In this document: positions 1 to 9,366 of the stretch, piece by piece | Layout: the number at the start of each line of letters is the position of its first letter | Numbering within the stretch: position 1 is the first letter of the stretch | Source of the DNA: an uncultured Ruminiclostridium sp. | GTDB taxonomy: Bacteria > Bacillota > Clostridia > Oscillospirales > Ruminococcaceae | Assembly (NCBI GenBank): GCA_947594425.1 | Contig: CANQED010000002.1 | Span: 250,364 to 314,363, forward strand | DNA: 64,000 nt | Direction of reading: 5' to 3' | Position numbers and translations under genes: made by a program | The notes under the pieces: model-generated | What the model saw: only the letters and a program-made list of their open reading frames with translations | Told to the model about the DNA's origin: nothing | The model's database searches: none

Positions 1-1496
1 ATGCTTTCAAGCATTTCGGGCTCAAAGAAATCGTCAGAATCAAGAAAAGACAGATATTCACCTTTAGCAATGGCTAAGCCCTTATTTCTTGCAGCACCTG
101 CGCCGAGATTATCCTGATAAAGCACCTTTACACGATCGTCATTGGCTTCATATTCTTTAAGTATTTCGGCGCTGCTGTCAGTCGAGCCGTCGTCAACGCA
201 TATGACCTCTATCTCTTTCATTGTCTGGTTCAAAACGCTGTCAAGGCATTGACGTAGATATTTTTCGGTATTGTAAACGGGAATTATCACAGAAACCTTA
301 ATACTGTCGGCGCAGTGCTGTTCATAATAATCTTCAGGGGCAAAAGCGACCCATTCAAATTCATCTGCCTCATACGGCATAAATGCGTCTTTGACATATT
401 CTCCATTTTCGATAGATTTTCTGAAATCCTCAGAGATATTGATAAGGTACTCCTTTTGATCATCTGCACCTATCCTGCGATAATTATTCATATAATTATG
501 GAATTTTTTCAAAGTATAAATTCCTATAAATTTTGTAAAAAGCTCAGGCTCTGAACTTAATATGTCGTGTATATAATTGTATTCGTGATTGATGTTGTAA
601 ACTTTCTTTTTATTGTAAACCGAAGAATTAGGATTGTCTCTTCTGTTCATATAATACGGTTTGTCAACTACATATATCCTGTCGGCTCTTATCATAGTCT
701 GAAACCAAAATCCGTTATCCTGAAAAGACGCGCCGGGGGTTTCCTGATGTCTGATACAGTTATCCACCAAAAAATCACGTCTGTATATACCGCTCCAAGT
801 ATTCATTATAAATCTAAACGAAAACGGTTCATCCAACGGACACATAACTTTGTTGTAGTATTCTTTCTTTTTTGCAACATCATTATATGTACATTTCAAA
901 CTGCCGTCGTTTTCTCTTAAGAAACGGTTGAAATCCGCTTTGACCCAGTCCACGCCGTTTTCCTCAGCGGTCTTGTACAGCTCCTCATACATATTAAGCT
1001 CTACAAAGTCGTCGCTTTCAACAATGCCTATGTATTCGCCTCTTGCCATATCCATGCCGATATTCATGGTGTGGCCGTAACCCGCGTTGTCCTTATCTAT
1101 TACTTTTACTCTGTCATCCTTTTCGGCGTATTCCTTAAGTATATCAAGGCAGCCGTCTGTCGAGCCGTCGTTTACGCAGATTATCTCTATTTCTCGCAGG
1201 GTCTGATTTACACAGCTGTCAAGGCATTCGCGAAGATACTGCTCGACGTTGCAGACAGGTACGACTATAGACACCTTTATGGGGCTGTCGGGCTGCTTGT
1301 CAAAGTTTATGAGCTGATGTATCGTAACCTTTTCGCGTGTCAGCCTGACAGCGCTCTCATATTCGTCCGATACGGCAGAAAGCGCTTTTGCGCCGTTATT
1401 GATACTGTTCTGTTCTTCCGCCTGAGTGTAGATCTCGGTTACAACGCCGCTTTGCGCCTCGGTATGATTTCTTTTCTTTCTTTCGTTTTTCGCCAT
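1..1496 (-). CDS. Tandem-domain GT2 glycosyltransferase (3' end outside window)
   Basis: The frame is open from the ATG at 1494-1496 to the window edge, about 498 codons with no stop, so the C-terminus is missing. A Shine-Dalgarno AGGAGA lies just upstream. Two GT-A family 2 nucleotide-sugar transferase domains are visible. The first starts near residue 75 (VSIVVPVCNVEQYL, VNDGSTDG, acidic ESDD metal site). The second follows about 300 residues later (VIIPVYNTEKYL, VDDGSTDS, DSDD). It is a paralogue of the next gene: the segment between the domains shares the string TPGASFQDNGFWF. It probably adds sugars to a surface or secreted polysaccharide at the cytoplasmic membrane face. Donor and acceptor cannot be read from sequence. 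It is the last visible gene of a leftward operon. Confidence 0.9.
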   Translation of the reverse strand, partial: MAKNERKKRNHTEAQSGVVTEIYTQAEEQNSINNGAKALSAVSDEYESAVRLTREKVTIHQLINFDKQPDSPIKVSIVVPVCNVEQYLRECLDSCVNQTLREIEIICVNDGSTDGCLDILKEYAEKDDRVKVIDKDNAGYGHTMNIGMDMARGEYIGIVESDDFVELNMYEELYKTAEENGVDWVKADFNRFLRENDGSLKCTYNDVAKKKEYYNKVMCPLDEPFSFRFIMNTWSGIYRRDFLVDNCIRHQETPGASFQDNGFWFQTMIRADRIYVVDKPYYMNRRDNPNSSVYNKKKVYNINHEYNYIHDILSSEPELFTKFIGIYTLKKFHNYMNNYRRIGADDQKEYLINISEDFRKSIENGEYVKDAFMPYEADEFEWVAFAPEDYYEQHCADSIKVSVIIPVYNTEKYLRQCLDSVLNQTMKEIEVICVDDGSTDSSAEILKEYEANDDRVKVLYQDNLGAGAARNKGLAIAKGEYLSFLDSDDFFEPEMLES

Positions 1497-1532
1497 TTTC
1501 TATCTCCTACATAAATTTACGGTTATATATAT

Positions 1533-3674
1533 TTAATATCCCCTTATCTTCCTCGGCAGCCAGGTTATCGCCCTGCCTATCTTAAAGGACAGAGAATTTC
1601 TTGTTTCCTCCAGCGCATGCCGCCAGTATGCCGCCTCCTGCGTGTCGACAGAGATCTGCGGCGTGTCCGCTTGGGTGAGACGTACATCCAACCGCTTTTT
1701 AAGCTCGATGTTCTCGATGTTCATAACGGCGAGCCGATAGGTCACATAATCGTTATCCGACCGCATTATCTGCTCGTATTGCTTGTACTCGGCGGGCACC
1801 CTAAACCATACCTTGGGCGCGTCGGTTATGCCGAGCTTGCCGAACCATTCGGCCTTAAGCTTATCGTACAGCTTCTTCCCCTCGTTGTCGCTGAGGGTCT
1901 TTAAATTCCACAAACAGCTGTTAAGCGCATAGTCGGTAAAATCGGGGCGGTATTTTTCCCATATCCCCATATTTTTAAGCTCTGTGCGCATTGCGCATAA
2001 CGCATTGAAAAAGCAGTCCCACGATTTTTCTCTCGTATTTGAAAGCGAACCCGATACGTTCCTGCGCTGGTGATAAAGGTACTGCTCGCAGGTAGTTATC
2101 TTTGCGGCCTTATACAAAGACATAAAGGTAAAATACATATCGTTAGTGGTGCGCTGCTCCTGAAATTTAAGCCCGCTGCTCAGCACAAAGCTGCGGCGGT
2201 ACAGCTTGTCCCACGCCCAGCCCATAAAGCTCCTGAAAACGGTATTGTCCATATCTCTCGCGGCAAACGGGCGATAGCTCGGCAGCTTGTCAAGCCTAAG
2301 CGAATAGGTACATCGGGTGGAGCTTCCGCTCTCGTTGTCAAAGAGCTCGGCGCGAAACACCGTCACGTCCGCCTTGTCCCTCTCCGCCGTTTTGTACGCC
2401 GCAGACAGCATCTGCGGCTCAAACCAGTCGTCCGAATCCGGAAAGGCGAGATACTTGCCGCAGGCGGCTTCTATCCCCGCGTTTCTAGCCGCTCCCGCGC
2501 CCTTGTTCTCTGTGTTTATTATCACAAAGCGCATATCCTTTGCGGCGTATTCTTTTAGTATTTCGGGCGAGCTGTCTGTAGACCCGTCATTAACGCAGAT
2601 TATCTCGATATCCTTAAGTGTCTGCGAGACAAGGCTGTCAAGGCACTGCCTCAGGTACTTTTCGCAATTGTAGACGGGGAGTATCACCGACACCTTAATT
2701 CGTTCGCGCTCTACGGTGTAGTAGTATTCTTCGGGGTCGCGTATCATAAGCATAAGGTCGTTCCACTCGCTGTTGGTGTATATCGACCTCGGGAGCTCGC
2801 CCTTTTGATAACTGTCCGCAAACTCCGCGGAAAATCTCCTTATATATTCGTGGCGAAACTGCGGCGCTATGCGCTTTAGATTAAACACGTAGGTGTGCAG
2901 CTTCTTCATCATAAACACGTCGATAAATTTCGACTTAAGCTCGGGATTTTTGCTTAACCAGTCATATATCAGGGCATATTCTTCGTTACCGCAGTATACC
3001 TTTTCTTTATTTGCGACCGAGGAGCCGGGATTGTCCCGACGGTTCATATAGAACGCCTTGCTAAGCACCATAAGCCGCCTTGCACAGCAAAAGCCCTTAA
3101 ACCAAAAGCCGTTATCCTGAAAAGATGCTCCGGGCGTTTCGTTGTGATAAATGCCGTTATCAAGCAAAAATTCACGCCTGTATATCCCGCACCATGTGTT
3201 CATTACAAATCTAAAGCATTCTTTCTCCTCCGAGGGGTCTATCACTCGGTTGTAATTCTTATCCTCTCTCGCCACGCGCCAAAGCGTTTTATCCTCTCCG
3301 TCGCCCGTAAAGCGGAAAAAATCGGATTTAACTATATCGCAATTATTCGCCTTTGCCGCATTGTACAATGTATTAAACATTTTCGGCAGTACAAAATCGT
3401 CCGGCTCGACTATACCGATATATTCTCCGCATGCCGCCGCAACGCCTACGTTCATAGCCTTGCCGTAGCCGCCGTTAGGTTGGGATATCACCCTTATCCT
3501 GCGGTCTTTTTCGGCATATTTTGCAAGAATTGCGGGGCTGCCGTCCGTCGAGCCGTCGTTGACGCATATTATCTCGATATCTTTAAGCGTCTGCCGCAAT
3601 ATGCTGTCAAGGCACCGCGCGAGGTAACTCTCCACATTGTAAACAGGCACTATGATCGAAATCGCCGTTTTCAC
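1533..3674 (-). CDS. Tandem-domain GT2 glycosyltransferase
   Basis: 713 residues with two GT-A family 2 domains. Domain 1 is at about residues 5-95 (ISIIVPVYNVESYL, VNDGSTDG, EPDD). Domain 2 starts near residue 330 (VSVILPVYNCEKYL, VNDGSTDS, DSDDW). Both keep the acidic metal-binding motif, so both may be active, as in bifunctional polysaccharide polymerases. That comparison is inference. The start is GTG at 3672-3674, one base after the stop of the upstream GT4 gene and preceded by AGGAGA, so translation is coupled. The 36-base gap to the next gene also supports one operon. Its likely role is synthesis of a cell-surface glycan; the exact linkage is unknown. Confidence 0.92.
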   Translation of the reverse strand: MKTAISIIVPVYNVESYLARCLDSILRQTLKDIEIICVNDGSTDGSPAILAKYAEKDRRIRVISQPNGGYGKAMNVGVAAACGEYIGIVEPDDFVLPKMFNTLYNAAKANNCDIVKSDFFRFTGDGEDKTLWRVAREDKNYNRVIDPSEEKECFRFVMNTWCGIYRREFLLDNGIYHNETPGASFQDNGFWFKGFCCARRLMVLSKAFYMNRRDNPGSSVANKEKVYCGNEEYALIYDWLSKNPELKSKFIDVFMMKKLHTYVFNLKRIAPQFRHEYIRRFSAEFADSYQKGELPRSIYTNSEWNDLMLMIRDPEEYYYTVERERIKVSVILPVYNCEKYLRQCLDSLVSQTLKDIEIICVNDGSTDSSPEILKEYAAKDMRFVIINTENKGAGAARNAGIEAACGKYLAFPDSDDWFEPQMLSAAYKTAERDKADVTVFRAELFDNESGSSTRCTYSLRLDKLPSYRPFAARDMDNTVFRSFMGWAWDKLYRRSFVLSSGLKFQEQRTTNDMYFTFMSLYKAAKITTCEQYLYHQRRNVSGSLSNTREKSWDCFFNALCAMRTELKNMGIWEKYRPDFTDYALNSCLWNLKTLSDNEGKKLYDKLKAEWFGKLGITDAPKVWFRVPAEYKQYEQIMRSDNDYVTYRLAVMNIENIELKKRLDVRLTQADTPQISVDTQEAAYWRHALEETRNSLSFKIGRAITWLPRKIRGY

Positions 3675-3675
3675 C

Positions 3676-4701
3676 TTACATTATCTCCTGAAAAATTTTA
3701 ATAAGCTTTGCGTAATAATCGTTTTTATCCGCATATTGTGCGAATTTAGCGTAGGATATTCTCCCCGCCGTTTCAAGCTCGCCGCTGTTAGCGATAAAAA
3801 AGCTCATCGCGGCCGAGAGCGCCGAGGCGCTGCCTGTCTTTACCACAAAGCCGTTGCCGTCCACGATATACTTTGCCCCCACATTTTGCGTCACTATCAT
3901 CGGTCTTGCGTACATCGCACCCTCAAGCGCCGTCAGCGAGCAAGACTCGTCAAACGACGGGACAAGCACCACGTTTGCCTTTTTATACATTCGGCTTTTG
4001 CCGTGCGTGAGCTCTCCGTGATAATTTACGCCGTCATATTTCTTGGCAAAAAGCGGCTTGTGATAACCCGCGGCCCAGCTCGGAGCGCTGCCGTATATGT
4101 CTAGCACAGCTCTTTTTTTAAGCTCGCGTGGCAAAATTTTAAAAGCCTCTATCGCCACGGATATCCCTTTTCTCGGCTCGATAGTCGCCGCTATGACAAA
4201 GCGGACCTTTTTACGCGCCCTGTTAAGCGTGGCAGTTTTGATAAAGGGCTTTATCAAAAAATTATGGAGTACAAATATATTCTTAGGCCTGTATGTCCTT
4301 TCGATAAAATGCGCCGCATATTCGCTGACGCAGACAATATGCTCGGCATTGCAGATACAGCCCTCGTCTATTTTATTTCTTTCAAGTATATCGGGGAGAT
4401 TTTCGGCCTCCCTGATATACAGTACGGTCGGGATATGCTCCTGCATCTTAAGCGCGGCTTCTCCGCAAAAAACGGTGTTGCAGACCGCTATATCAAAGCG
4501 GCTCGAAAGCTCCCTGCACCTTTGTATATCAAATTTCCTCACTCTAAAGCCGTACTGTGCGAACCTGCGGGAGAAAGTCCCTTTCGTCTGCGTGTACACC
4601 TTTACCTTATGCCCGTGGCCGCGCAAGACCCGCGCCACATTCAATAGGCTGTGCGGAGCACCCGTGTAGGTCATCTCGTGTGACAGCAATAATATCCTCA
4701 T
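3676..4701 (-). CDS. GT4-like glycosyltransferase (GT-B fold)
   Basis: 341 residues. The N-terminus (LLLSHEMTYTGAPHSLLNVA) is typical of GT-B glycosyltransferases that act on lipid-linked or polymer acceptors. The C-terminal half carries the family 4 E-x7-E signature in SFDESCSLTALEGA, which binds the nucleotide-sugar donor. No signal peptide or membrane segment is seen, so it should work at the cytoplasmic membrane face. It starts only 30 bases after the stop of the degenerate tyrosine recombinase at 4732-5649, with a weak ribosome binding site (AAAGATAAG), and runs into the GT2 gene with a one-base gap. The operon therefore appears to be recombinase-GT4-GT2-GT2. Confidence 0.88.
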   Translation of the reverse strand: MRILLLSHEMTYTGAPHSLLNVARVLRGHGHKVKVYTQTKGTFSRRFAQYGFRVRKFDIQRCRELSSRFDIAVCNTVFCGEAALKMQEHIPTVLYIREAENLPDILERNKIDEGCICNAEHIVCVSEYAAHFIERTYRPKNIFVLHNFLIKPFIKTATLNRARKKVRFVIAATIEPRKGISVAIEAFKILPRELKKRAVLDIYGSAPSWAAGYHKPLFAKKYDGVNYHGELTHGKSRMYKKANVVLVPSFDESCSLTALEGAMYARPMIVTQNVGAKYIVDGNGFVVKTGSASALSAAMSFFIANSGELETAGRISYAKFAQYADKNDYYAKLIKIFQEIM

Positions 4702-4731
4702 CTTATCTTTGCCGAAAACAGCGCCCGCCCA

Positions 4732-5649
4732 TCAGCTGACTTCCTTAGAGATTAGATTTACCGCCTCTATCTTGCTCCGCATAGTCGGCTTCTCGCAATA
4801 CGCTGCCGCGCTCTGCACCGAGGCGTTGCCCAATACGTCGGCGAGAACCGTCACGTCCGCCCCGCGGCTGAGACAGCGCTTGATGAACAGCTTGCGCAGC
4901 TCGCTGAAACTGATATCAGGCAAATATGACTTTTTGAGAAAGGCGCGCAGGCGGTACTGCATTGTGCGGGGCTCGATGGGGGAAGTTGTACCCGAGAGGA
5001 AAAACTTCTCAGCATCCGTTTTAAATTTTAACAGGATATCCTGCAAAAATGCCGCGATAGGCACTTTTCGGCTGGAGCATGGCTTAAGCTCGGTCAGGAC
5101 AAGCCCGGTATTTTCTCCCACAGATACGCGCTGGAGGGTCTTTGATATATTAAGAAAGCCGCCGTCAAGGTCGATATCCTCCCACTTAAGCGCGCAAAGC
5201 TCGCCTATTCTAAGCCCGGTGTAAAGCGTCATCAGTATTCCGCACTTTGTAAGGTCGGGGTCGGCGGTCAGCGCCTCGCACAAGCGCCCGCAATTGATCT
5301 CGTCGTAGGAGCTTTTGACAACATCAGGCTCGGGGCGCGCAAAAACCGCGTCTATCGCCGGGTCGGGACAGCCGCATGCGCGCGAGATGTATTTAGTTAT
5401 CATCTTGACCTGAATTAAAATATCGTAAACATACTGCGGGGTCAGCCCCTCGGTGCAAAGCCGCTCGCTAAGCTCGCTCAGCTTGTCCGCATTTATGTCC
5501 CGAAGAGGGGTGTTTTTGAAATATGGGAGAATGTTTTTCTCAAGTCTCGCGGTGTACTGAGCACAAGAAGTCGGCTTTATGCGCGGCTTTACTGCGTCGA
5601 GCCATTTCGCCGCAGCGGCTTCAAAAGTCATATTCTCAGCATTTGCCAT
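4732..5649 (-). CDS. Tyrosine recombinase homologue lacking both catalytic histidines
   Basis: 305 residues with a core-binding domain (about 1-110) and a phage-integrase catalytic domain (about 115-305). It is clearly paralogous to the neighbour at 5744-6796. Arg147 (TGLRIGEL), the hairpin Lys (near 189), Arg252 and Tyr284 are kept. The HxxR histidine is Ser249 (FSELR instead of FHALR) and the second histidine (LGH) is Asn275. Loss of both histidines should strongly reduce or abolish cleavage, so it may be a directionality or regulatory partner, a very slow enzyme, or a decaying gene. The intact length, good SD (GGAGGGG) and coding continuity argue against simple decay. It lies 30 bases upstream of the glycosyltransferase genes in the same direction. 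Confidence 0.85.
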   Translation of the reverse strand: MANAENMTFEAAAAKWLDAVKPRIKPTSCAQYTARLEKNILPYFKNTPLRDINADKLSELSERLCTEGLTPQYVYDILIQVKMITKYISRACGCPDPAIDAVFARPEPDVVKSSYDEINCGRLCEALTADPDLTKCGILMTLYTGLRIGELCALKWEDIDLDGGFLNISKTLQRVSVGENTGLVLTELKPCSSRKVPIAAFLQDILLKFKTDAEKFFLSGTTSPIEPRTMQYRLRAFLKKSYLPDISFSELRKLFIKRCLSRGADVTVLADVLGNASVQSAAAYCEKPTMRSKIEAVNLISKEVS

Positions 5650-5743
5650 AAGCCCCTCCTTGCACTAAACAAATATAATTCGGGAATTTCATCTTTCGCG
5701 AAAAAGGCGCGGGCATGGCATAATATTCAGTTTTTGACGGCAA

Positions 5744-6796
5744 TCACGCCGCGAAAGTAAGCTTTTTCATAAAGCGCTTTTTGCGCTCCATAGAGGAGTG
5801 AACGTACCTGTTGAGGGTAATCTCAACGCCCGAGTGACCCAAGATTTCACTGAGCGACTTAACGTCAAACCCCATTTCAACGCAATTTGTGGCAAACATG
5901 TGGCGCAGCGCGTGAAAGTGTATCGACGGCAGTTTTGCTTTTTTCAGTAGCTTTTGAAAGCGGTATTGCATAACGCGAGGTTCTATAGGTTTTGGTGTCG
6001 AAGAAAGAAAATAGGTATCCTTATCCGAGAAAAACCGCTTTAAAATGCCGATAATGCAGTCGGGAATAGGAATTTCTCTGACGGAAGAATTACTTTTCGG
6101 CTCGGTGATAATCAGCTTAGTGCCGCAGCTTGTGCGTATGCGCTGAATGGTTTTCGTAACGCAAATTGTGCGCTTTGAAAGGTCGATATCTGACCACTTA
6201 AGCGCGCATAATTCTCCTATTCTAAGCCCCGTGAACAGCGACAAAGCAACCCCTGCCGAGGTGAGGTTTTGGTTTTCTCTAAGATACCTTTGCAGACGGA
6301 TTTGCTGCGATTTTGACAGCAATTGTACTTGGGATTTTTTACGCTTTGGGAGCACGACTTCTGCGATAGAATTGCGGATATTGTACCTCGCGGCGGCGTA
6401 CTTCATTACCGACTTCAGCAAAATAACAATGTCCGCGACATAGTTCGAGGACAGCCCGCTTTGCAGCCTGTCGGCTATGAATTGTCGCAGCTGCCGAGGC
6501 GACAGTTCATCAGCTTTTGTGCTGCCGAAAACGGGCAAGATGTGGCTCTCCGCCTTGCCTATGTAGTTTGCGACCGTAGACTCTTTGAGCCTGACACTCG
6601 CCGCATCAAGCCATTCCTCAAAAAGAAATCTCACCGTCAGCCCCGAGCGGCTGTAGCTTTTGCTATCCTTAAATGCTTTCATTTTTTGCGCCACATCTTC
6701 TCGGGTTTTCCCGTAAAAGTAGCGGAGTTTGCGATTTTTGCCGTCAGACAGCCGTCCCTCAAACCGCCCGTCCCTGCGCAGATAAATATTTTCCAT
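5744..6796 (-). CDS. Tyrosine recombinase (phage integrase family)
   Basis: About 350 residues from the chosen ATG at 6796. AGGAG lies 7-8 bases upstream of it, and the upstream in-frame ATG at 6823 overlaps a divergent promoter. The N-terminus has an AP2-like/SAM-like DNA arm-binding region and a core-binding domain. The catalytic domain carries all expected residues: Arg in TGLRIGELC, HxxR in FHALRH, His in LGHSG and Tyr in NRYVH. It should cut and rejoin DNA at specific sites through a 3'-phosphotyrosine link. It sits directly upstream of its degenerate paralogue (about 94 bases apart) and next to surface-polysaccharide genes, which suggests either element mobility or site-specific inversion controlling the operon. 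No inverted-repeat target was recognised. Confidence 0.92.
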   Translation of the reverse strand: MENIYLRRDGRFEGRLSDGKNRKLRYFYGKTREDVAQKMKAFKDSKSYSRSGLTVRFLFEEWLDAASVRLKESTVANYIGKAESHILPVFGSTKADELSPRQLRQFIADRLQSGLSSNYVADIVILLKSVMKYAAARYNIRNSIAEVVLPKRKKSQVQLLSKSQQIRLQRYLRENQNLTSAGVALSLFTGLRIGELCALKWSDIDLSKRTICVTKTIQRIRTSCGTKLIITEPKSNSSVREIPIPDCIIGILKRFFSDKDTYFLSSTPKPIEPRVMQYRFQKLLKKAKLPSIHFHALRHMFATNCVEMGFDVKSLSEILGHSGVEITLNRYVHSSMERKKRFMKKLTFAA

Positions 6797-6816
6797 CATT
6801 TTTCTCCTTTTTCGTG

Positions 6817-6845
6817 TTGACATTTACACGGTTTTATGATACAAT
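6817..6845 (+). promoter_or_regulatory. Sigma-A promoter divergent from the tyrosine recombinase
   Basis: TTGACA at 6817-6822 and TACAAT at 6840-6845 with a 17-base spacer. It fires rightward, away from the tyrosine recombinase, towards a stretch that ends in an intrinsic terminator (6983-7015) before any convincing gene. Confidence 0.7.
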
Positions 6846-6851
6846 AAATTT

Positions 6852-7015
6852 GATTTAGTGGCGATTGTGCGTTATTGCACTTTTTCGCAACTATATTTTA
6901 TTATACTTTTTGTGTTTCGTAAATGATGAATTTAGCGAAAGATACGCTTACGCTTTTGCGCACATTTTTTCGTGTAAAAAACAGGGCAGACGTTGGATAT
7001 GTCTGCCTTATTTTT
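6852..7015 (+). ncRNA. Possible small RNA between recombinase genes
   Basis: This roughly 165-base stretch lies between a near-consensus promoter and an intrinsic terminator and has no convincing coding sequence. The one short open frame crossing it (6865-7065) has no ribosome binding site and runs through the terminator stem. It could be a small regulatory RNA or a terminated leader for the genes at 7092. This is inferred only from the promoter-terminator layout; no known RNA family was recognised. Confidence 0.35.
6983..7015 (+). terminator. Intrinsic terminator upstream of the serine recombinase locus
   Basis: A 9-bp stem (AGGGCAGAC with GTCTGCCTT) and a 9-base loop are followed by ATTTTT. 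It would stop transcription from the 6817 promoter before the ORF at 7092. Confidence 0.65.
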
Positions 7016-7091
7016 ATGCGTTAAAATCAATAACTCTATCATACCGTACAAGCGCCGACGCATAAGATTTCAGTGACGGAGGTGTCGGCTT

Positions 7092-7325
7092 ATGAAGCAC
7101 AGAGAGTTTGTGTTTATCGGGGATAGCGCCCCGATCATAGACGAAAAGGAAAACGCGCAATTTTTGCTTTTATTTCAAAAGGCGATACTTTGCTCGCTCG
7201 AAAAAAGAAAATTACTGACCTATGAGCAAAAAGAGCGCTGTATCAAAGAGCTTGCAAAAGCTCAGCCGTACGCGGAATACTCCGATACAGACGAGAGAAG
7301 TGACAGCCGTGCCGGAAAAATATGA
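7092..7325 (+). CDS. Small SHOCT-like protein preceding a serine recombinase
   Basis: 77 residues with an SD-like GACGGAGG just upstream of the ATG. The middle (LEKRKLLTYEQKERCIKEL) resembles the short SHOCT-type helical hairpin of small proteins encoded just before large serine recombinases in clostridial elements. That likeness is from memory and is weak. The 3' end overlaps the 5' end of the recombinase reading frame, so the two may be translationally coupled. It could be a recombination directionality or accessory factor. Function is not established. Confidence 0.55.
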   Translation: MKHREFVFIGDSAPIIDEKENAQFLLLFQKAILCSLEKRKLLTYEQKERCIKELAKAQPYAEYSDTDERSDSRAGKI

Positions 7326-8895
7326 GCTGCTCTATCGGGAGAAAGAGATACGGCAGGGAAAGAAAACGGTCGCTGCTTACTGTCGGGTCTCCACAGACAG
7401 CGAGGATCAGGCGAACTCTTTTGAAAGTCAGCAGAGATATTTTAGGCAGTATATAGAGCGCCACCCCGGATGGGAATTGTACGATATATTTGCCGACGAG
7501 GGCATATCGGGGACAAATACCAAAAATCGCAGAGCCTTTAACCAAATGATATCCTGCGCTAAGGCGGGCTGTTTTGAGCTTATTATTACAAAAGAAATAT
7601 CCCGTTTTGCGAGAAATACGCTTGACAGCATATTTTATACCCGCGAGCTTAAAAAATACGGCGTAGGCGTTATCTTTATGAACGACGGAATAAATACCTT
7701 AGACGGCGACGCCGAGCTGCGCCTTTCTATTATGTCGTCTATCGCGCAGGAAGAAAGCCGCAGGACCTCTCAGCGCGTCAAGTGGGGGCAAAAGCGGCGA
7801 ATGGAGCAGGGCGTGGTATTCGGCAGCAATATGCTCGGCTACGACGTTAAAAACGGCAAAATGACCGTCAATGAAAAGGGCGCGGAGATAGTAAGGCTTA
7901 TTTTTCATAAATACGCATACGAGGGCAAAGGCGCTCACGTTATCGCCCGCGAGCTTATCGAGGCGGGCATTTCTCCAATGAGGACAAAGCGCTGGTCAAA
8001 TACCGCCGTTCTCAGGGTGATAAGAAATGAAAAATACTGCGGCGATCTGGTGCAGAAAAAGACGATAACTCCGGATTTTCTTTCTCACGAGAAAAAATAC
8101 AATCACGGCGAGGAAGAATTTGTTATCATAAGAGATCATCACGAGCCTATTGTCTCCCGCGAGCTTTTTGACAAAGCAAACAGGCTGCTTGAAAGCCGCT
8201 CTTTATCCCAAGAGGGCAAATCAAAGCACAGCAGTCGTTATCCTTTTTCCGGGAAGATAAAGTGCGGGATCTGCGGTTCAAGCTTTGTCGCGAGGTATAA
8301 GACAAGAAAAGACGGCTCAAAGTACAAGTCCTGGCGTTGCTATGAGGCGGCAATCAACGGAAGCCCCCACGTCGACGGACTGGGAAACCGCGTCGGCTGC
8401 CGCGCAGGCTCGATAAGAAACGAGGACGCGGTCTATCTTATGTATCTCGTTTGCAAAGAGCTAAAAATCGACCGCGAAAAGCTTGCGAAAAAGCTTATCA
8501 AGACGATTAAGTCGGTAATATCCTGCGGCCTTTCCGACATAAAAGCATTAAATGAAAAAATAAATGCTGTAAATAAAAAGCGTACAAGTCTTATAGACCT
8601 GTACGTCGGCGGCGATATCGATAAAGATGAATTTTTATCACTCAGAGCAAAATATGACGCTGAGCTTGCGAGGCTAAAAGCTGCGGCTGAGGATGCCGCA
8701 ATACGGCAGGATATGCTCGACGGGCAGGAGGCGATCATTAAGATACAAAGCGCCGTAAACGAGCTTTTAAACGGGGTATTATACGAGGATGAATTTTACT
8801 CTGCTATTCTTGATAAAATGGTCGTCTTGGATAAAGAGCATATCGACATATACCTAAATATGCTGCCGTATAAGTGGTCGTATGCGGCGTTTTGA
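7300..8895 (+). CDS. Large serine recombinase (site-specific integrase)
   Basis: About 531 residues. The N-terminal resolvase catalytic domain begins with VAAYCRVSTDSEDQ, whose Ser is the nucleophile, and continues with GISGTNTKNR and EISRFARN, which hold the catalytic arginines. Next come the recombinase domain, a zinc ribbon (CGICGSSF...CYEAA...GCRAG) and a coiled-coil C-terminus. Large serine recombinases integrate and excise phages and integrative elements at short att sites. The start is uncertain: GTG at 7300 or 7309 fits the family's usual short N-terminus, while ATG at 7222 has no ribosome binding site. The gene ends about 45 bases before a truncated cotJC, which places the attachment junction there. 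Confidence 0.92.
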   Translation: MTAVPEKYELLYREKEIRQGKKTVAAYCRVSTDSEDQANSFESQQRYFRQYIERHPGWELYDIFADEGISGTNTKNRRAFNQMISCAKAGCFELIITKEISRFARNTLDSIFYTRELKKYGVGVIFMNDGINTLDGDAELRLSIMSSIAQEESRRTSQRVKWGQKRRMEQGVVFGSNMLGYDVKNGKMTVNEKGAEIVRLIFHKYAYEGKGAHVIARELIEAGISPMRTKRWSNTAVLRVIRNEKYCGDLVQKKTITPDFLSHEKKYNHGEEEFVIIRDHHEPIVSRELFDKANRLLESRSLSQEGKSKHSSRYPFSGKIKCGICGSSFVARYKTRKDGSKYKSWRCYEAAINGSPHVDGLGNRVGCRAGSIRNEDAVYLMYLVCKELKIDREKLAKKLIKTIKSVISCGLSDIKALNEKINAVNKKRTSLIDLYVGGDIDKDEFLSLRAKYDAELARLKAAAEDAAIRQDMLDGQEAIIKIQSAVNELLNGVLYEDEFYSAILDKMVVLDKEHIDIYLNMLPYKWSYAAF

Positions 8896-8929
8896 CCGAG
8901 TCAGCGGGGATAAAACGGAACATTTTTGA

Positions 8930-8946
8930 TACATATATAGGTACCG
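8930..8946. other. Inferred att junction of the recombinase element in cotJC
   Basis: Manganese-catalase homology starts abruptly at the codons for IGTEEL (ATA at 8937, then GGTACC). Upstream sequence in the same frame is unrelated and runs into the recombinase 3' end. A large serine recombinase crosses over at a 2-bp core inside a short site, so the crossover is expected within or next to ATAGGTACC. The partner att site with the cotJC 5' part is not in this window. Confidence 0.6.
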
Positions 8947-9314
8947 AGGAGCTATCCCACCTTGAGATGATAGGCTCTATAGTGTCGCAGCTCACCACGG
9001 GCGAGGGCGCGCGCAGCTTTGACCGCTACGGCGTGGGGGATTATTACATCGACCACGCAAACGCCGTGTACCCCGCTAGCGCCGCGGGCGTGCCGTTTAC
9101 CGCCGCATATATACAGTCTAAGGGCGACCCGCTCGCGGATCTTGCGGAGGATATGGCGGCGGAGCAAAAGGCCCGCGCCACCTATGACAACATACTTCGT
9201 ATGAGCGACGACCCCGACGTAAACTGCGCTATACGCTTCTTGAGAGAGCGCGAGGTCGTGCATTTTCAGCGGTTCGGCGAGATGAGAAATCTGCTGCAGG
9301 AAAAGATAAAGTAA
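8937..9314 (+). pseudogene. cotJC: cotJC 3' fragment (spore-coat manganese catalase), interrupted
   Basis: The reading frame encodes the last 126 or so residues of a CotJC-type manganese catalase: IGTEELSHLEMIG, then VDH-like YIDHANAVYP, AAGVPFTAAYIQSKGDP, AAEQKARATY and RFLREREVVHFQRF. Intact CotJC is about 190 residues, so roughly the first 60, including the first helix with metal ligands, are missing. The break coincides with the 3' side of a large serine recombinase gene. The retained part shows no stops or shifts and has its own terminator, so it is well preserved. This suggests a gene split by an element and perhaps rejoined by excision during sporulation. It could also be a dead remnant. 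Confidence 0.85.
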
Positions 9315-9325
9315 ACACGCGATAT

Positions 9326-9366
9326 TCCGCCGAGGGGGCATTTACCTCTCGGCGGATTTTTATTTA
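9326..9366 (+). terminator. Terminator of cotJC
   Basis: A strong GC-rich hairpin (TCCGCCGAGG with CCTCTCGGCGGA) is followed by TTTTTATTT. It lies directly after the cotJC stop. Confidence 0.85.

Follow-up and report, generated by a model that had tools for sequence, protein, structure and literature searches.

The window analyzed here is a 64,000-nucleotide stretch (C2:250364-314363) of G000, a 2.6-Mb draft genome of 43 contigs (99.95% complete) from a gut bacterium that has spo0A and spoIVA and that we take to be close to Eubacterium siraeum; its closest relatives with a name are MAGs deposited under Ruminiclostridium sp. An open reading frame (ORF) at 8874-9314 matches Pfam Mn_catalase over profile positions 61-195 (E 5.4e-32); it contains the 3' part of cotJC, which runs undamaged to its stop at 9314 and is followed by a terminator-like stem (Table 1). 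Only two loci in the whole genome matched Mn catalase: the 3' part just described and, 23.4 kb upstream on the same contig and strand, a 5' part; both are free of internal stops. The 5' part reads ...LLTDIG and then departs from the gene, and is preceded by two ORFs, recognized by eye, that presumably are cotJA and cotJB.

The preliminary description, made from the sequence alone, had noted a cotJC truncated next to a serine recombinase, with undamaged C-terminal codons and its own terminator, and this is confirmed. The 5' fragment that it predicted, ending in D-I-G beside a matching core, is present on the same strand of C2, and the Mn catalase search found no second, intact cotJC in this 99.95% complete genome.

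Between the two parts lies an element with 17 ORFs of at least 70 aa and a 77-aa ORF that overlaps the recombinase gene. Its polysaccharide genes encode a nucleotidyl transferase with ManC-like parts, two transketolase halves, an iron alcohol dehydrogenase, an HMGL-like protein, a GDP-mannose dehydratase, two epimerases, a DegT aminotransferase, a UDP-glucose/GDP-mannose dehydrogenase and four glycosyltransferases. Three glycosyltransferase genes fall in the window, the first truncated by its start, and the ORF map bears out the earlier proposal that the element reaches left past them. A Pfam scan of all 18 ORFs found no phage structural families, nor the structural and packaging genes of a prophage.

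Table 1. Coordinates of the split cotJC gene and its intervening element (window positions unless prefixed by G000:C2, which marks positions outside the window)
Feature	Position	Strand	Basis or remark
cotJC 5' part (residues 1-62)	G000:C2:235669-235853	+	Pfam Mn_catalase match at 235669-235854, profile 1-63
Partner att core ATATAGG, left end	G000:C2:235847-235853		
Partner arm AAATGTTCCG, element left end	G000:C2:235868-235877		
Right-hand part of 23.4-kb element	1-8934		Element starts at G000:C2:235854
Polysaccharide cluster, window part	1-4701	-	Pfam glycosyltransferase families
Second tyrosine recombinase within element	4732-5649	-	Pfam Phage_integrase
Tyrosine recombinase within element	5744-6823	-	Pfam Phage_integrase
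Vegetative-type promoter-like site TTGACA-17-TACAAT, towards recombinase	6817-6845	+	11/12 consensus bases
77-aa ORF 5' of recombinase, candidate directionality factor	7092-7325	+	No Pfam family
Large serine recombinase, start codon uncertain	7222-8895	+	Pfam Resolvase, Recombinase, Zn_ribbon_recom; site-C clade
Inverted-repeat arm CGGAACATTT, element right end	8916-8925	+	Sequence, symmetry test
att core ATATAGG, element right end (attR)	8935-8941	+	Sequence, join
cotJC 3' part (residues 61-185 and stop)	8937-9314	+	Pfam Mn_catalase, joined translation
Terminator-like stem 3' of cotJC	9326-9356	+	

Attachment sites and the join of the halves

The break lies close 3' of the serine recombinase stop codon, as first described: the element's own large serine recombinase adjoins the att site, with the core ATATAGG 39 bases beyond that stop. 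The longer core originally proposed, ATAGGTACC, holds in part, since ATATAGG is common to both ends, whereas TACC is found on the gene side only. The core-to-core distance is 23,451 bp, and the insertion point falls within the codons for D-I-G^T-E-E. When the halves are joined at the shared ATATAGG, a complete 185-residue CotJC is restored in frame (...LLTDIG^TEELSHLEM...). Joining the ends of the element gives an attP in which a perfect inverted repeat of 10 bp flanks the core. It is symmetric at 18/25 positions, a value matched by 0/300 random centres (p=0.002 in another run). A search of IMG/VR with the 28-base attP pattern for an excised circle gave 0 matches.

Among 55 split pairs from related genomes, 53 gave a stop-free join at the longest shared run; for the remaining two (G208 and G026) a chance run had been picked, and a second method of choosing cores joins both of them free of stops. 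The attP symmetry reached p<0.05 in 34/55 pairs and p<0.01 in 26/55; some of the cores behind these figures are chance runs (G069, G208, G306C, G026 and others), and the second method chose poor cores for some pairs (G067, G155).

Insertion sites, recombinases and phages across Clostridia

Mn-catalase matches were obtained in 55/71 genomes of the genus and, by our reading of these matches, 25 have an intact CotJC, 26 have CotJC fragments, 3 have contig-end pieces only and 1 has another Mn catalase only. The fragment ends cluster near residues 30 (site A), 51, 62 (site C), 123, 137 (site E) and 176 (site F); the insertion in the window is at site C, with a variant, C2, a few codons further on. 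CotJC can be aligned with solved Mn catalases, and sites A, C, E and F are located at or near glutamate and histidine motifs that we take to be the metal ligands of the enzyme. Counts of ligand motifs per piece were dropped because the alignments overrun the breaks. One genome (G061, L071) contains an intact cotJC and an extra piece (residues 133-177) ~5 kb downstream, and another (G067, L045:3714-5897) has the recombinase and the cotJC 3' part in one continuous frame of 728 codons.

At the family level, 277/396 genomes matched Mn catalase and 96 seemed fragmentary. We re-searched 74 of these, the omitted genomes being mostly less complete, and read at least two complementary, separate CotJC pieces in 62/74; the other 12 were not counted, as the second piece was not listed, overlapped the first or came from another protein. 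For the class, 230/343 genomes of at least 90% completeness matched, and we read separate, complementary pieces in 35/44 of those re-searched, a survey that left out G516, G684, G669 and G728 (neighbouring, frameshift-like pieces), G591 (overlapping contig-end pieces), G574, G743, G733 and G723. According to this reading, 23 families, the family of the window included, have cotJC broken at the same small set of positions.

Some of the piece pairs are on different contigs, where no element is demonstrable. For 35 genomes, at least one element has its two ends on a single contig, on the same strand and in the right order, so the draft state of the assemblies does not explain the split gene. These include single-contig genomes: G624, with a gap of 8.1 kb, G489, with one of 157 kb, and G578 and G403, each with three pieces. 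Gap lengths range from about 2 to 157 kb, and some genes consist of three or four pieces. Elements at these few cotJC sites are found in many other Clostridia, in some cases two or three of them in a single gene.

Several arrangements stand apart. In the single-contig genome G001 (L040, L041), ~675 kb separates the two halves, which lie on the same strand, and G032 (L042, L043) has the same flanks on both sides, the 5' flank resembling ordinary chromosome. The order is reversed in G213 (L177), where the 3' half is found ~11 kb upstream of its 5' counterpart, and the halves are on opposite strands and could be joined by an inversion in G169 (L181); both may be misassemblies.

By our reading, the retrieved stretches of all 35 genomes with both element ends on one contig (35/35) contain a serine recombinase gene, mostly at a junction. 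Outside this set, the retrieved stretch of G213 has no such gene, nor do the 3' sides retrieved for G195, G193 and G161. In a tree of 56 recombinases, the sequences are sorted by insertion site (11 changes versus 33.2 in shuffles, 0/200 as low): site E forms one group, site C forms one clade that includes two non-cotJC rows, and C2, A and F are apart. The exceptions are one site-A row (G046) placed elsewhere and one site-D row within A; row G003n groups with F, consistent with a site-F element in G003. This is a quick tree with several long end branches, in which the order among clades is unreliable, and the clades largely follow the cotJC insertion site. Small ORFs resembling the 77-aa ORF precede other site-C recombinases, many of these matches being weak.

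G000 has three other PF07508 genes, two at a phage-like contig start and one at a contig end, and no split host gene was recognized beside them. The former are tandem serine recombinases on C1 (L159:4623-8222) behind a SHOCT_2 small protein, and both fall within the site-C clade.

CotJC is also encoded on 21 IMG/VR contigs, where provirus contigs end in cotJC and the protein starts at profile residues 61-65 (13 contigs), 20-32 (7) or 111 (1); the fetched flanks of 13/21 contain a serine recombinase. A PHROGs scan of ten proteins from six of the 21 contigs identified a tail tape-measure protein on L208, the others belonging to DNA-metabolism families (helicase, ParB-like, SbcC-like, replication initiation) or to families of unknown function. 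The recombinase in the window has relatives in phage records with up to 48% identity. As judged by these contigs and by the content of the G000 element, phages and non-phage islands use the same cotJC sites.

Selection on the halves and predicted promoters

We compared substitution patterns in split and intact genes. G208 and G414 have a common 9-kb element that is syntenic through its ORFs (51-95% protein identity), and the insertion therefore predates their split. Their cotJC genes differ by 84.5 synonymous and 6.5 amino-acid changes (pN/pS 0.024, 95% 0.007-0.050), with low values in both pieces, and G001 and G032, with flanks common on both sides, give 0.058 (0.027-0.099). The 25 closest intact pairs span 0.004-0.267, mostly 0.03-0.09. 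The halves of a cotJC split by an element common to two species are under purifying selection.

For G000 itself, the comparison with the intact gene of G064 gives pN/pS 0.089 (0.051-0.133), with 9 amino-acid changes on the G000 branch versus 0 on that of G064, and 20 and 10 synonymous changes, respectively. The G000 branch exceeds all 12 control branches from six intact trios (0-6 amino-acid versus 20-34 synonymous changes) and, though far from neutral (p=2e-7), may reflect some relaxation of selection. A pooled branch test was not used, because 4 of the 5 changes attributed to G066 are element residues at the junction.

Upstream of cotJA, the genus shares a motif, gTaAC-N16-gCATAaAATA, which we take to be a mother-cell sigma site; 36/42 upstream regions (35 distinct) passed the motif search, and in G000 the motif is present from C2:235153 on. 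A sporulation promoter 5' of the recombinases was rejected as a general rule, with 7/48 scorable sites at p<0.05 and 12/48 at p<0.1. The sense versus antisense comparison for a cotJA-like motif 5' of the recombinases gave p=0.07, the best candidates being G447 and the near-identical site-E elements of G026, G050 and G051. Scanning 16 whole elements for promoters placed only some above shuffles (G000 8 versus 3.0, G447 2 versus 0.3, G414 1 versus 0.2), and one of the 8 hits in G000 is the vegetative-type site. A vegetative consensus scan found 6 sites in the region versus 4.1 in shuffles. Predicted promoters are a weak pointer to control of the recombinases by the mother cell. In known systems the directionality factor can be the controlled step, according to the available text of PMC5025042, and a vegetative-type site is for this reason compatible with regulated excision.

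The two best sigE/K-like genes of G000 appear intact, which speaks against a skin element in this genome. In G011 and G014 (L228-L230), whose cotJC is split, a sigK-like gene is fragmented as well, and a serine recombinase adjoins its 5' piece.

A probable skin-like element in cotJC and alternative explanations

Serine recombinases have split cotJC at fixed sites with matching att sites, and selection has been kept on the halves in elements common to two species. Recurrent breakage at few fixed spots in spore-forming relatives suggests that the gene is rejoined during spore making. These observations, together with spo0A and spoIVA in G000 and the sporulation-type motif upstream of cotJA, support the earlier interpretation of the G000 element as skin-like and extend it well beyond this genome. 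We consider it probable that the element is an intervening one, which the mother cell cuts out to restore an intact cotJC. As the anatomy shows, the serine recombinase inserted the 23.4-kb element by attP x attB recombination into cotJC, which appears to be the third and last gene of its operon, after cotJA and cotJB. During growth, and in the chromosome of the spore, cotJC would remain split. During sporulation, the recombinase and a directionality factor may join attL to attR in the mother cell, and release of the element would make a complete cotJC available for the spore coat. The lineage would keep the element, since the mother cell dies. Excision in sporulating mother cells is inferred from three things: the selection seen on both halves where two species share an element, the recurrence of the splits, and the known precedents. 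Use of the rebuilt gene is inferred as well, indirectly, from constraint on split genes. Several observations weigh against this interpretation: the attP search of IMG/VR gave 0 matches, a cotJA-like promoter 5' of the recombinases is not general and G000 has a vegetative-type site there, the G000 branch carries more amino-acid changes than the intact controls, and the halves are far apart in G001, reversed in G213 and on opposite strands in G169. Nor is CotJC known to be essential.

The elements could instead be parasites of a safe site, without programmed excision, if cotJC is silent in growth and dispensable. The intact state of the halves would then reflect turnover of the elements, with selection acting on cotJC in cells of the lineage that have none. 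The presence of both phage contigs and non-phage islands at cotJC sites is in keeping with this, as are the weak promoter evidence, the intact cotJC in 25/55 matching genomes of the genus and the near-identical site-E recombinases of G026, G050 and G051, which point to recent transfer. However, the elements common to two species stayed put while both halves were constrained, and some genes are in three or four pieces; we regard this explanation as unlikely.

It is very improbable that cotJC of G000 is simply dead, with halves that fit only because the insertion is recent: amino-acid changes are somewhat raised on the G000 branch, but its halves have no stop or frameshift, the same sites are hit in 23 families, and shared elements show constraint. 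An assembly of separate polypeptides into a working catalase, requiring no DNA joining, appears scarcely credible. Every piece is an open frame, and the recombinase and cotJC 3' part of G067 share one, yet several cuts fall at or near the metal-ligand motifs, genes are in up to four pieces, and the 3' pieces bear unrelated leading residues that differ between elements.

Excision of a skin-like element from cotJC has precedents in sigK, spsM, spoVFB, gerE and yabG, sporulation genes for which intervening elements are described in the accessible text of PMC5595907 and PMC10747680. The closest in form is gin in gerE of Bacillus cereus ATCC 10987 (PMC5595907, as far as its available text goes): both are islands without phage genes (28.6 kb versus 23.4 kb) with a serine recombinase, a short shared core (9 bp in gin, 7 bp in cotJC) and exact restoration of the sporulation gene, predicted for cotJC from the sequence join. 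gin differs in its target gene and class and in having three serine recombinases, and its excision in sporulation is demonstrated. Skin in sigK of Bacillus subtilis and Clostridioides difficile (available text of PMC5025042, PMC4191935 and PMC10747680) is likewise a serine-recombinase element in a mother-cell gene; skin-like sigK splits also occur in G011 and G014 of the same genus, whereas the target in G000 is the coat catalase and its sigE/K-like genes are intact. The yin element of Clostridium botulinum V73, again a clostridium, likewise has a PF07508 serine recombinase and occupies a gene of late sporulation, yabG, and its excision rises during sporulation; the accessible text terms it unique to one strain (PMC10747680), whereas the cotJC sites recur in 23 families. 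The phi027 prophage of C. difficile R20291 borders a CotJC-like Mn-catalase gene, CDR20291_1465, which the available text calls adjacent and not interrupted (PMC11222575), unlike cotJC of G000. A literature search, with preprints and most subscription papers outside its scope, found no earlier report of a split cotJC, and the word "catalase" is absent from the main text of a serine recombinase survey (PMC10083194).

A broader reading can be put forward tentatively, as one that may well not hold: cotJC could be a standing gene-in-pieces of Clostridia, spliced at the DNA level in several steps by mother cells. Five lineages of serine recombinases would each serve largely one site, with up to three insertions per gene and parts far from each other in some lineages (~675 kb in G001, with the same flanks in G032), so that in the extreme case the chromosome would be resolved into two circles.

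Few sporulation intervening elements have been described, in scattered genes; in cotJC, several distant integrase lineages strike a single gene at the same codons in 23 families. One consequence is that annotations will often show cotJC as absent or broken. If the interpretation is correct, programmed DNA rearrangement would be common in the sporulation of gut Clostridia, many natural integrases would be at hand whose target and partner sites are known, and comparative study could address what such elements cost their hosts and what they bring them.
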